Assembly: GCA_029975555.1 (NCBI GenBank)
Contig: JARKOY010000093.1
Coordinates: 1-43,780 of the forward strand
Direction of reading: 5' to 3'
Origin: Spirochaetia bacterium
Lineage (GTDB): Bacteria > Spirochaetota > Spirochaetia > Treponematales > Rectinemataceae
Length of the DNA: 43,780 bases
The translations under genes and the position numbers were made by a program. The notes beneath the pieces were generated by a model. The model was not told the origin of the DNA, did no database searches, and saw nothing but the letters and a program-made list of their open reading frames with translations. Below, piece after piece: positions 23,399 to 28,407 of this stretch (position 1 is the first letter of the stretch; each line of letters starts with the position of its first letter).

Positions 23399-24412
23399 TC
23401 ACTCCTGTCGCCGCTTGAAATCCATGTCCCGCGAGCTTGGGACTACGCCCCAGCCGTCGGTCTCGCCGCGCGCAAAGTAGTGCCACGCGATGCCGGCCAC
23501 CATCGCGGCATTGTCGCCGCAGAGAAAGAGGGGCGGGAAATAGACGCGCAGCTCGTTTTTCTTCGCAAGTTCGCGCCTCAGGTATGCGTTGGCCGCGACG
23601 CCCCCGCCGGCGACGACGGTCCGGATGCCGGTGTCGCGTACGGCCCTGTAGAGGCGCGAAAGAAGAATGTCTATGGCGGTCTTGCGGAAGCTCGCCGCGA
23701 TGTTCTCGGGCGTCGCCGCCGCGCCGGGGCGCTGGTAGGATGGCAGATGGTGGATCACCGCGGTTTTCAAGCCTGAGTAGGAGACGTCGTAGCGGTGCTC
23801 GCCCTTGTGCAGCGAGGGTAGGGGAAAGGTGAACGCACGCTCGTCTCCCCTTTCCGCGAGCTGGTCGATGGCCAGTCCGCCCGGATAGCCGAAGCCGTAG
23901 TGCTTCGCCACCTTGTCGAAGGCTTCTCCCGCCGCATCGTCGATCGTCGTGCCCAGAACCGTAACTCTGTCGAAATCGTCGGCCCGGCAGATGATCGTGT
24001 GGCCTCCCGACACGAGGAGCCCCAAAAACGGATATTCAATGGGCTCTACGAGCTGCGGTGCATACAGGTGCGCGAGCATGTGGTTTATGCCCTTAAAAGG
24101 GAGATTGCGCGACCACGCGAAGGCTTTTGCGAAGGACAGCCCCACCGCCAGAGAGCCTATGAGGCCCGGCTTGGCCGTCGCCGCGACCCCGTCGATCGAC
24201 GCCGCCTGAAGCCCTGCATCAGAGATGGCGCGCCTGACCACACCCATGATCCACTCGATGTGGGCCCGGCTGGCTATCTCTGGCACGACGCCCTGATACC
24301 GCTCGTGGAGGGGAATCTGCGTCATGACGACATTCGAGAGGATGCGCCGTCCGTCTTCCACGACCGCGGCTGCGCACTCGTCGCAGGAAGTCTCAATTCC
24401 CAGAATCCGCAT
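23399..24412 (-). CDS. tsaD: tRNA threonylcarbamoyladenosine biosynthesis protein TsaD
   Basis: The 337-residue protein is the universal transferase that installs t6A at position 37 of ANN-decoding tRNAs. It shows the ETSCDE start, the metal-binding HMLAHLYA segment near residue 112, the LVSGGHT motif and the ASK-type nucleotide-binding C-terminal VAGGGVAANAYLR. The length is standard. Its start overlaps the end of the upstream polysaccharide deacetylase gene by about 20 nt. The partners TsaB, TsaC and TsaE are not in the window. Confidence 0.96.
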   Translation of the reverse strand: MRILGIETSCDECAAAVVEDGRRILSNVVMTQIPLHERYQGVVPEIASRAHIEWIMGVVRRAISDAGLQAASIDGVAATAKPGLIGSLAVGLSFAKAFAWSRNLPFKGINHMLAHLYAPQLVEPIEYPFLGLLVSGGHTIICRADDFDRVTVLGTTIDDAAGEAFDKVAKHYGFGYPGGLAIDQLAERGDERAFTFPLPSLHKGEHRYDVSYSGLKTAVIHHLPSYQRPGAAATPENIAASFRKTAIDILLSRLYRAVRDTGIRTVVAGGGVAANAYLRRELAKKNELRVYFPPLFLCGDNAAMVAGIAWHYFARGETDGWGVVPSSRDMDFKRRQE

Positions 24413-25536: not shown

Positions 25537-26358
25537 CTATGCGGTCAGGCCCACGCTCACTGCCCTGTGCCACAGCGCCTGCAGCGCTTTTTTTTCGATG
25601 TGGCGCACGGTCTCCGCCGAACAGCCGACCACCGAACCCACCGCTTTCAGCGACTGCTCGCGCTCTCCGCGGAGGCCGAACCGCCTCGATATCACCTCCT
25701 TTTCCCTTGGAGGGAGGGTGGAAACAAGCCATGAGCTCTGCCACGCGATGCTCGATTTTTCTGCCTGTCGCTCCGGATTGTAGCGCCAGTCCTCGTACAC
25801 ATCGAGGACGGAGCGGTCGTCGTCTCCCGCCTGTTCCAAGGCCACGGGCTGGTCGCCCATGTGGAGGATGGCCGAAATTTCGGCCTCGGTGCATCCCATC
25901 TCCTGCGCAAGTTCTTTTTCCGTAGGGGTTCGGGACATCTCGAGGCTCTTGCGCATCTTGATGGCGTTGATCCGTCGCAGTGCGTCTTCCTTCCTGTGCG
26001 GAAGGCGGATCTGACGCCCCGTGTTCACCATGGAGCGAGAGATGGACTGGCGGATCCACCAGACGGCGTAGGTCGAAAATTTGACGTTTTGGGAGGCATC
26101 GAAGCGCTCGGCGGCCTTCACAAGCCCGATATTGCCTTCCTGAATCAGGTCCAAAAGCGAATACGGGGGAGTCCACAGCGATTTCGCGATGCGGACCACG
26201 AGGCGCAGATTGCCTTCCACGAGGCGCTTGAGGGCGGCTTTGTCCCCCTTCGCGATTTTTCTGGCCAACATCGATTCTTCTTGTCGGCTCACAAGGGGGA
26301 TTTTGCGGATCGAATCGAAATAGAGATCGAGCCCTTCGTCGCTGTCGGCAACGGTCAT
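25537..26358 (-). CDS. Sigma-70-family factor, short RpoS/RpoD-like
   Basis: The 273-residue factor has region 1.2 (GLDLYFDSIRKIPLVS), region 2 with LIQEGNIGLVKAAERFD and FSTYAVWWIRQSI, region 3, and region 4 ending in a helix-turn-helix (VGSVVGCSAETVRHIEKKALQAL). There is no region 1.1 and no long insertion, so it is not the main housekeeping RpoD. The size fits group 2 or 3 factors and is close to Borrelia RpoS (about 267 residues, from memory). A strong GGAGGAAT precedes the ATG. A sigma-54-type promoter lies upstream (26396-26411), which implies a sigma cascade. The target genes are unknown. Confidence 0.9.
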   Translation of the reverse strand: MTVADSDEGLDLYFDSIRKIPLVSRQEESMLARKIAKGDKAALKRLVEGNLRLVVRIAKSLWTPPYSLLDLIQEGNIGLVKAAERFDASQNVKFSTYAVWWIRQSISRSMVNTGRQIRLPHRKEDALRRINAIKMRKSLEMSRTPTEKELAQEMGCTEAEISAILHMGDQPVALEQAGDDDRSVLDVYEDWRYNPERQAEKSSIAWQSSWLVSTLPPREKEVISRRFGLRGEREQSLKAVGSVVGCSAETVRHIEKKALQALWHRAVSVGLTA

Positions 26359-26395
26359 GGTATTCCTCCAAGGATAGTTCTCGAAAGAATACTAA

Positions 26396-26411
26396 GCAAA
26401 TTTAGTGCCAA
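26396..26411 (-). promoter_or_regulatory. Sigma-54 (-24/-12) promoter of the sigma-factor gene
   Basis: On the minus strand the sequence TTGGCACTAAATTTGCT has the -24 GG (26409-26408) and -12 GC (26397-26396) separated by exactly 10 nt, with TGGCAC and TTGC blocks. It departs from the usual consensus at only one defined base. The predicted start near 26384 leaves a leader of about 26 nt containing the GGAGGAAT ribosome site. Confidence 0.75.
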
Positions 26412-26442
26412 ATATGATAAATATTTTTATTTTTAGATAATT

Positions 26443-26473
26443 ATATGTTTTATATTGAATTAATATGCTTTAT
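26443..26473 (-). promoter_or_regulatory. Direct repeat upstream of the sigma-54 promoter
   Basis: ATATGTTTTAT (26443-26453) and ATATGCTTTAT (26463-26473) match at 10 of 11 positions and are 20 nt apart start to start. They lie about 60-90 nt upstream of the predicted transcription start, where enhancer-binding activators of sigma-54 often bind. The region is AT-rich, so chance is possible. Confidence 0.3.
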
Positions 26474-26538
26474 CCGTGGTGGGCATGGCGCCATGGGCGG
26501 CATCCTGGGGCCTGTATGTATGATAAAAAATACTTTTT

Positions 26539-26578
26539 GCAGGCGGCGCTGTCTTCTTTTATAGACAGTGCTGCCTGC
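26539..26578 (-). terminator. Hairpin downstream of the M23 peptidase gene
   Basis: Two 16-nt arms (26539-26554 and 26563-26578) pair except for two mismatches and enclose an 8-nt loop. On the minus strand the stem is followed by AAAAAGTATTTTTTAT. It lies 27 nt past the M23 stop and before the sigma-54 promoter, so it probably insulates the two genes. Confidence 0.65.
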
Positions 26579-26604
26579 TTCGATGCTGTGTCACCTCGCG
26601 TCGC

Positions 26605-27885
26605 TCACGGCATATATTTCCGCGGATCCACCGCCTGGCCGTTGCGGAACATGCCGAAGTGAAGGTGGGGCCCCGTGCTCTGCCCTGTGTTGCCTGATCG
26701 GCCGATCACGTCTCCCTGGGTTACGCTCGCCCCTTTATGCGTGAGCACTGTGTCGAGGTGGGCGTAGAGCGACTGATAGCCATCCGCATGCCGGATTATC
26801 ACATAATTGCCGAACACCGCATTGTAGCCTGTGTCGGCGACTTTGCCTTCACGGGTGGCTTTGACGGGGGTGCCGCGATTGACGACGATATCGATCGCTG
26901 AGTGGAAGGTGCGCTGGCCGCTGAATGGGTTGCTGCGGTAGCCGAAGGGTGAAGATATAGAACCGCGAACCGGCCAGATGAAGGTTTCACCATAGAAATT
27001 GCGCAGCACCGAGGCGCTGAGTTTTGCACTGGGAATAAAGAGCCGATCCCCCGCCCGGAGCGTCGCCGAAGAGATATTGTTCGCGTCGGCGATGCGCGTG
27101 ACATCCACGCCGTAGGCCTTCGAGATGATCGACAGATTTTCGTTTTTTTTCACGGTATGGTACACGCCGTTCATGTTGGGCACTTTCAAGGTTTTGCCGA
27201 CCACAAGCTGATTTTTCGAGCTGAGGTTGTTGGCCGAGATGATCGTGTCCTCCCGCAGGCCGAAGCGACGCGCGATGCTCTGCAGGGTGTCGCCCCGACG
27301 CACCGTGTACGTCCTCTCAACGAGGAGGGACGGCAGGGGGGGGAGGGCAGCCTCGTCTTCCGTCGGCGCCGAAGGCTCTGGTTCGAGCATAGCCATGAGC
27401 GCCGCTTGGGCCGAATCTTCGTCGGGAAGCGCGATGACAGGATGCGAGTGCGAGATGAGCGAGGCCGCGAGCACGCCTGCGCCGCCTATCGAAAGCGCAA
27501 TTGCGACGACAATGAGCGCGAGCGGCAGTGTTTTTCGGATGTTACGGATAGGTGCTTGTTTTTGCGCAGGCTTTTGAGGAGGCCTGATCTCTGTGGACTC
27601 TTCGTAGGTATGCGTGAGGGCCGCAGGGGAAAAGAGCGGGCCACGGGAAAGGGGGTCTGAGGGTTTTTGGGGTTTTGGGGCCGCCCTTTTGTTGAGTCCC
27701 ACGGAGGCGCTATCGTTATTCTTATTTTGAGATTGCGTTCGACGCTGCGTTTCAAAAAGAGGGAAGCGCTTTGCCTCTTTCGTTTTTACAATGAGGTTTT
27801 CGCCTGACAGCACGGATACGAGTGGTTTGTGGAGGACCCTCTCCGCCTCGAGCACGGCGTCGTCCGATTGATAACGTGAGTTCAT
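26605..27885 (-). CDS. LysM/M23 peptidoglycan endopeptidase, membrane-anchored
   Basis: The 426-residue protein has a cytoplasmic N-terminal region of about 120 residues, rich in Lys, Gln and Pro. One membrane segment follows (TLPLALIVVAIALSIGGAGV), then two LysM domains (YTVRRGDTLQSIA and YHTVKKNENLSIIS) and a C-terminal M23 domain. The metal ligands are present (FHSAID and HLHFG), so it is probably active on peptide cross-links rather than a degenerate regulator. The ATG at 27885 follows AAAGGTG. It is divergent from lepB-ftsI, which fits a shared envelope role. Confidence 0.92.
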   Translation of the reverse strand: MNSRYQSDDAVLEAERVLHKPLVSVLSGENLIVKTKEAKRFPLFETQRRTQSQNKNNDSASVGLNKRAAPKPQKPSDPLSRGPLFSPAALTHTYEESTEIRPPQKPAQKQAPIRNIRKTLPLALIVVAIALSIGGAGVLAASLISHSHPVIALPDEDSAQAALMAMLEPEPSAPTEDEAALPPLPSLLVERTYTVRRGDTLQSIARRFGLREDTIISANNLSSKNQLVVGKTLKVPNMNGVYHTVKKNENLSIISKAYGVDVTRIADANNISSATLRAGDRLFIPSAKLSASVLRNFYGETFIWPVRGSISSPFGYRSNPFSGQRTFHSAIDIVVNRGTPVKATREGKVADTGYNAVFGNYVIIRHADGYQSLYAHLDTVLTHKGASVTQGDVIGRSGNTGQSTGPHLHFGMFRNGQAVDPRKYMP

Positions 27886-27896
27886 CGCACCTTTTG

Positions 27897-27926
27897 TATC
27901 GGCAGATATACGCCGATAATTTATCG
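27897..27926. promoter_or_regulatory. Overlapping inverted repeats between M23 and lepB
   Basis: TATCGGC / GCCGATA (27897-27903 with 27912-27918) overlaps a second palindrome CGATAA-T-TTATCG (27914-27926). They occupy the 90-nt divergent control region and may be an operator acting on both transcription units. No known regulator consensus was recognised. Confidence 0.4.
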
Positions 27927-27975
27927 TAAATTGCCGGAAATGAGAACGCAAGAGACTGAAAGAGAGTTTGTCTAA

Positions 27976-28407
27976 ATGAACGATGTGGCGGCTCGGCACA
28001 GGAGGAAAAAGCGTGACGGCACGGCTAGCACCGTGATTGTCGTCGTCCTTGCGGCATTCGCCGTGAGGACGTTTGTCCTCGATGCGGCCGTCGTGGAAGG
28101 AAAATCGATGCTGCCGCATTACCGGAACGACAGCGTGGTCTTAATTCTGAAGACCGCGTACGGAATCCGCGGTGTCCGAGGGAAATACGTGGTGCGCTGG
28201 AAGCTCCCCGAGCGCGGAGACGTCGTCGCCGCACTGCGTCCTGATTCTCGGAAGATGGTGATAAAGAGAATCGGGGAGATCCGAGGCGGCGCGGATTCGC
28301 CCGAATATTTTTTGATTGGGGACAATGGCATCGAGTCCGTCGATTCGAGAGATTTTGGCCCTGTGCCGTTCGATGCGGTTGTCGGAAAGGTCATTCCCCA
28401 GAGGTAA
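27976..28407 (+). CDS. lepB: Signal peptidase I
   Basis: The short (143-residue) S26 peptidase has one N-terminal membrane segment (ASTVIVVVLAAFAVRTFV). The catalytic serine is in GKSMLP near residue 44, the lysine in VIKRIGE near 96, and the box GDNGIESVDSRDFG is complete. It removes signal peptides at the outer face of the cytoplasmic membrane. It is close to the minimum size, with no large periplasmic insertion. No ribosome site precedes the ATG. ftsI begins 4 nt after its stop. Confidence 0.9.
   Translation: MNDVAARHRRKKRDGTASTVIVVVLAAFAVRTFVLDAAVVEGKSMLPHYRNDSVVLILKTAYGIRGVRGKYVVRWKLPERGDVVAALRPDSRKMVIKRIGEIRGGADSPEYFLIGDNGIESVDSRDFGPVPFDAVVGKVIPQR

Follow-up and report, generated by a model that had tools for sequence, protein, structure and literature searches.

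To our knowledge, nearly all work on the RpoN-RpoS cascade has dealt with it as a virulence switch of Borrelia. The closest described system is the Rrp2-RpoN-RpoS (sigma54-sigmaS) cascade of Borrelia burgdorferi (PMC1976401, PMC3037356, PMC6719511), in which rrp2 has hk2 as its immediate upstream neighbour, activation by Rrp2 requires no enhancer (PMC1976401), and residues R121 and K122 of RpoS have been proposed to determine promoter selectivity (PMC6719511).

The window examined here, that is, the whole 43,780-nt stretch of DNA, belongs to a 3.27-Mb spirochaete draft genome (G000). On its minus strand, positions 25537..26358 encode a 273-aa sigma-70-family factor which domains, tree and profiles assign to the clade of Borrelia-type RpoS (clade A) and which carries an Arg122-Lys123 signature. 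Upstream of this gene, at 26396..26410 on the minus strand, lies a sigma-54 -24/-12 promoter core, TGGCAC-N5-TTGC or GG-N10-GC (TGGCACTAAATTTGC; minus-strand reading ATTTGGCACTAAATTTGCTTAG), with the GG at 26409-26408 and, after N10, the GC at 26397-26396; the final C of the element is separated by 37 nt from the ATG at 26358. The predicted leader (26359..26384, minus strand) contains a GGAGG ribosome site at 26365-26369, and the geometry of sigma-54 promoters places the predicted +1 about 12 nt past the GC, near 26384. The original prediction of a GG-N10-GC element in front of the sigma gene, with leader and ribosome site, is borne out both by the sequence and by conservation. A short inverted repeat, TTCT-TTCG-AGAA (26378-26389), surrounds the predicted transcription start and is kept in the closest congeners.

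The -24/-12 element is real and conserved. It is present in 9/9 congeners, in which conservation reaches 93% in the -24 block and 91% in the -12 block, compared with 47% in the spacer and 46-56% in upstream segments; these two blocks are the only conserved sequence upstream of the leader. Orthologues of the 273-aa sigma were found in 30/30 genomes of its family. For the phylum, 393 genomes were searched for small sigma genes and part of the loci were read, yielding 79 distinct clade-A loci; since scoring these loci with a position matrix derived from them would be circular, a fixed consensus, TGGCAY-N5-YTGC, was used. Nearly all small sigma genes across this sample carry the consensus. Among clade-A loci, an exact element occurs within 130 nt of the start in 66/79, and one with at most one mismatch in 77/79, a positive outcome of the check on orthologous loci proposed in the original prediction; in the remaining two, an exact match lies further upstream, at -142 and -248. 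In the second clade of small sigmas (clade B), 36/48 loci have the element with at most one mismatch. The median distance between element and start is 43 nt. As controls, the genes for RpoD, FliA and a third type of sigma (group C) had the element in 0/8 cases even with two mismatches allowed, and reversed upstream sequences in 0/127 with one mismatch allowed. The sigma-54 wiring is not universal, since part of the clade B of the outer classes lacks the element: the clade-B sigmas of outer families f32, f29, f36, f27 and f38 are devoid of it, although rpoN is present, and it has been either lost or never gained there. In one genome of family f4 (G387), there are three close clade-B copies; in two of them, a -24/-12 element lies some 150-165 nt upstream of the assigned start.

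The full model, which we consider highly probable, holds that an orthologue of Borrelia RpoS is transcribed from the sigma-54 promoter at 26396-26410 with the help of an AAA+ activator, for which the best candidate is of the Rrp2 type. The genomic complement is in place. The rpoN gene, on whose presence the original prediction hinged, is intact in G000, with activator-interacting (AID), core-binding and DNA-binding domains, and was found in 51/51 sampled spirochaete genomes. G000 further encodes eight activators with a full AAA+ domain, including an Rrp2 orthologue. In a tree of the activators of G000 and eight other spirochaetes, one group (SH-aLRT 99) contains exactly one member per genome. 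It includes the two Borrelia Rrp2 proteins, one activator from G088 (see below), which has two, and the G000 activator encoded on contig C70. As with hk2 and rrp2 in Borrelia, a histidine kinase gene immediately precedes the C70 gene. This histidine kinase/Rrp2-type operon and the fliA (sigma-28) gene are convergently oriented.

The alternative that best survives accepts the cascade and assigns the promoter to one of the seven remaining sigma-54 activators of G000. We regard this as distinctly the less probable assignment: the genome encodes eight full activators, none of which is linked to the promoter by a conserved upstream site, but an Rrp2 orthologue is present in every spirochaete sampled and is the sole activator found in two Borreliaceae genomes, and the Rrp2-type genes of G400 and G280 are some 3-5 kb away from a clade-B sigma gene. 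The upstream DNA offers little help in this respect. An 11-nt direct repeat had been put forward as an enhancer where an activator could bind; its two copies (ATATGTTTTAT, 26443-26453, and ATATGCTTTAT, 26463-26473; together 26443..26473) are indeed there, with 10/11 identical positions, and about 3% of shuffled sequences have as many such pairs. The motif occurs twice in none of the eight congeners (0/8), so that the repeat stands as a sequence feature and is rejected as a conserved enhancer. A second repeat, TTTATCATA, occurs at 26413-26421 and 26519-26527. No common upstream activator site that would point to one activator was seen among the congeners; the model is unharmed by this result because Rrp2 of Borrelia acts without an enhancer (PMC1976401).

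The identity of the sigma factor was assessed by domain, profile and tree analyses. The protein comprises sigma-70 regions 1.2, 2, 3 and 4 without a long N-terminal region 1.1 and is thus a group 2 factor by architecture. Its score against the proteobacterial RpoS model TIGR02394 is 200.8 bits, below the NCBIfam cut-off of 378.7, and it is also far under the curated RpoD cut-off; one contig search for relatives returned mostly RpoD-like proteins from other phyla. In the tree, the small sigmas of spirochaetes split into two clades (bootstrap/SH-aLRT 100/99 each). Clade A unites the 273-aa factor with Borrelia RpoS, in the kind of phylogenetic comparison with Borrelia and Treponema sigma factors that the original prediction had asked for, and clade B unites the second small sigma of G000 (contig C151) with the small sigma of G088; the tree separates both clades jointly from RpoD, E. 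coli RpoS and the third sigma type (99/91). The genome G088 (1,139,633 bp) is one that we take to be T. pallidum, in which case its clade-B sigma is probably TP1012. The name RpoS is used here in the Borrelia sense, as the best tree leaves E. coli RpoS out of the clade.

A second alternative accepts the promoter as real and denies that the 273-aa factor and Borrelia RpoS are orthologues, so that sigma-54 control would have been acquired independently by different small sigmas. Borrelia RpoS sits on a long branch, and because of this AU tests reject neither a placement in clade B (p = 0.39) nor one beside E. coli RpoS (p = 0.25); furthermore, the promoter alone is no proof of orthology, given that clade B has the same promoter type. 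Nevertheless, evidence independent of the tree favours clade A. With clade profiles built without Borrelia sequences, Borrelia RpoS scores 281 bits for A, 203 for B and 153 for RpoD; conversely, the G088 sigma scores 277 for B versus 196 for A. R121/K122 of Borrelia align with R122/K123 of the 273-aa factor, and the pair is nearly invariant in clade A, whereas most clade-B members have LNRANE and RpoD has VHMIE at the same position. Finally, the order of sigma, deacetylase and tsaD genes is identical in Borrelia. Against the 100/99 support for clade A, the 77-bit profile gap, the Arg-Lys signature and the shared gene order, independent acquisition appears improbable, and these lines of evidence support the view that the 273-aa factor is a relative of Borrelia RpoS.

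This gene order begins in the window with the sigma gene and continues, on the same strand, with a gene for a divergent polysaccharide deacetylase (PF04748; 24393..25493, minus strand) and tsaD (23399..24412, minus strand); the gap between sigma and deacetylase is 43 nt, and deacetylase and tsaD overlap by 20 bases. The original prediction named the deacetylase and M23 genes as possible targets of the sigma factor; the deacetylase gene, a conserved neighbour that also lies downstream of Borrelia rpoS, looks like an operon partner and is likely to be co-transcribed with it, as probably is tsaD, the conserved third gene. The order is found, apart from Borrelia, in many families between. The Borreliaceae genomes were assigned to this group on the basis of small size, a complement of two sigma-70-family genes and, from the sequence itself, a flgI-like gene upstream of rpoS, as described (PMC1976401). 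In the window, the gene directly upstream of sigma encodes a LysM-M23 (NlpD-like) protein (26605-28119). Between the two genes, 3' of the M23 gene, is a strong hairpin (26539..26578, minus strand; z = -4.1 for the fold of 26520-26604) that is likely to be a terminator separating them, although a simple terminator scan made no call at 26539-26578.

These features bear on a third alternative, namely that the sigma gene is transcribed mainly from another promoter, of the sigma-70 type or by read-through, with the -24/-12 promoter being secondary and conditional. Sigma genes commonly have several promoters, and an AT-rich stretch is present upstream of this one; however, no sigma-70-like site was found on the minus strand in 26330-26640, the hairpin stands between the upstream gene and the sigma gene, and conservation upstream of the leader is confined to the -24 and -12 blocks. 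We therefore give this alternative only a slim chance. The M23-sigma adjacency itself recalls nlpD-rpoS of E. coli, though the sigmas belong to different clades, and is possibly convergent. The M23 neighbour is limited to few families, mainly f1 and f3; because of this distribution, and because E. coli RpoS lies outside the clade, nlpD-rpoS synteny was rejected as a sign of a true E. coli-type RpoS.

The weakest alternative, a chance match, has negligible probability: the bare 10-base motif has 5 exact matches in the 3.27-Mb genome versus about 6 expected by base count, but conservation in place across family and phylum, together with the clean controls, rejects it. With no enrichment over chance, the genome-wide motif count was dropped as evidence, and it is the place and conservation of the element that count.

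All five exact matches in G000 precede plausible genes. One is the 273-aa sigma gene; the others are an Hsp20 gene (C89:12335), a 1-Cys peroxiredoxin gene (C166:19960), a ferritin-like gene of the Dps type (C151:18470) and a gene for a membrane protein similar to Borrelia P13 (C43:81445). The Hsp20 element is kept in 22/25 family members with upstream DNA and in 9/9 within the genus, and the peroxiredoxin element in 8/9; for the Dps-type gene, no homologue was detected in the other 29 family genomes, which puts its element beyond footprinting. The second small sigma of G000 (clade B, C151:160622-161431) also has a -24/-12 element, TTGGCATGGTTCTTGC, about 40 nt before its start, and thus both small sigmas of this genome appear to be driven by sigma-54. 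Likewise, the clade-B sigma gene of G088 (C1:1104681-1105544; presumably TP1012) has TGGCATGATATTTGC 65 nt before its assigned start, in a genome that also contains rpoN and an Rrp2 orthologue. Because such elements precede the second sigma and the Hsp20, peroxiredoxin, Dps-type and P13-like genes, sigma-54 in G000 seems to stand at the top of a stress and envelope response with two branches.

The element, rpoN, the Rrp2 orthologue, the tree and the gene order agree with the Borrelia-like RpoN-to-RpoS wiring first suggested for this spirochaete; that core proposal is supported, was if anything understated, and can be widened to the second small sigma of G000 and, probably, to TP1012 in T. pallidum. 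The parts of the model that are directly observed are the element and its conservation, the evidence for orthology, and the presence of rpoN and activators. Mechanistically, a signal would lead to phosphorylation of the Rrp2-type response regulator (C70) behind its histidine kinase; opening of the sigma-54 closed complex would require an AAA+ activator, and the phosphorylated regulator would open it, possibly with no need for a fixed enhancer, as is the case in Borrelia. From the opened promoter the small clade-A sigma would be made, probably together with the deacetylase and tsaD, and would in turn switch on a second set of promoters. In this scheme we infer transcription itself, the identity of the activator, the signal and the regulon of the small sigma.

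Conservation of the sigma-54 switch over most of the phylum suggests that wiring described in one pathogen may be an old and general feature of spirochaetes. We think it probable, with less assurance than for the locus itself, that most Spirochaetota have an ancestral cascade, with two parallel sigma-54-driven small sigmas in many of them and stress genes under direct control, and that Borrelia and T. pallidum retain one branch each. The cascade would then predate, or have arisen soon after, the split into the two clades of small sigmas, of which Borrelia and T. pallidum would have kept opposite ones. We found no earlier report of comparable breadth in the open-access literature, to which the search was confined, subscription papers being outside its scope. 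Should free-living and gut spirochaetes prove to share this promoter, activator and sigma clade, the cascade would be an inherited stress circuit that was reused by the agents of Lyme disease. Such a reading would provide a testable function for unstudied sigma factors, including the probable TP1012 of T. pallidum. It would also help to establish that the disputed 'RpoS' of Borrelia is a member of a separate, spirochaete clade.

Among known systems, E. coli RpoS (sigma-38) shares with the factor described here the group 2 architecture and, in this family, the LysM-M23 (NlpD-like) neighbour, but it is not a member of the spirochaete A+B clade in the best tree and lacks the Arg-Lys signature (K173 context IHIVKE), and the spirochaete M23 neighbour is not phylum-wide. 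The clade-B small sigmas of spirochaetes, including that of G088, have the same -24/-12 element upstream, in genomes that also encode RpoN and an Rrp2 orthologue; they differ in forming a separate clade (100/99), in having LNRANE in most members and in having no deacetylase-tsaD neighbours in the loci read. G000 differs from Borrelia burgdorferi in encoding eight full activators where the latter has one, in possessing FliA and a further small sigma, of clade B, whose gene is preceded by a -24/-12 element as well, in the sigma-54 elements that precede its Hsp20, peroxiredoxin and ferritin-like genes, and in a shorter distance between element and start codon. What the two have in common is a small sigma gene behind GG-N10-GC, rpoN, an Rrp2-type regulator gene behind a histidine kinase gene, the sigma-deacetylase-tsaD order and the Arg-Lys pair in region 3.
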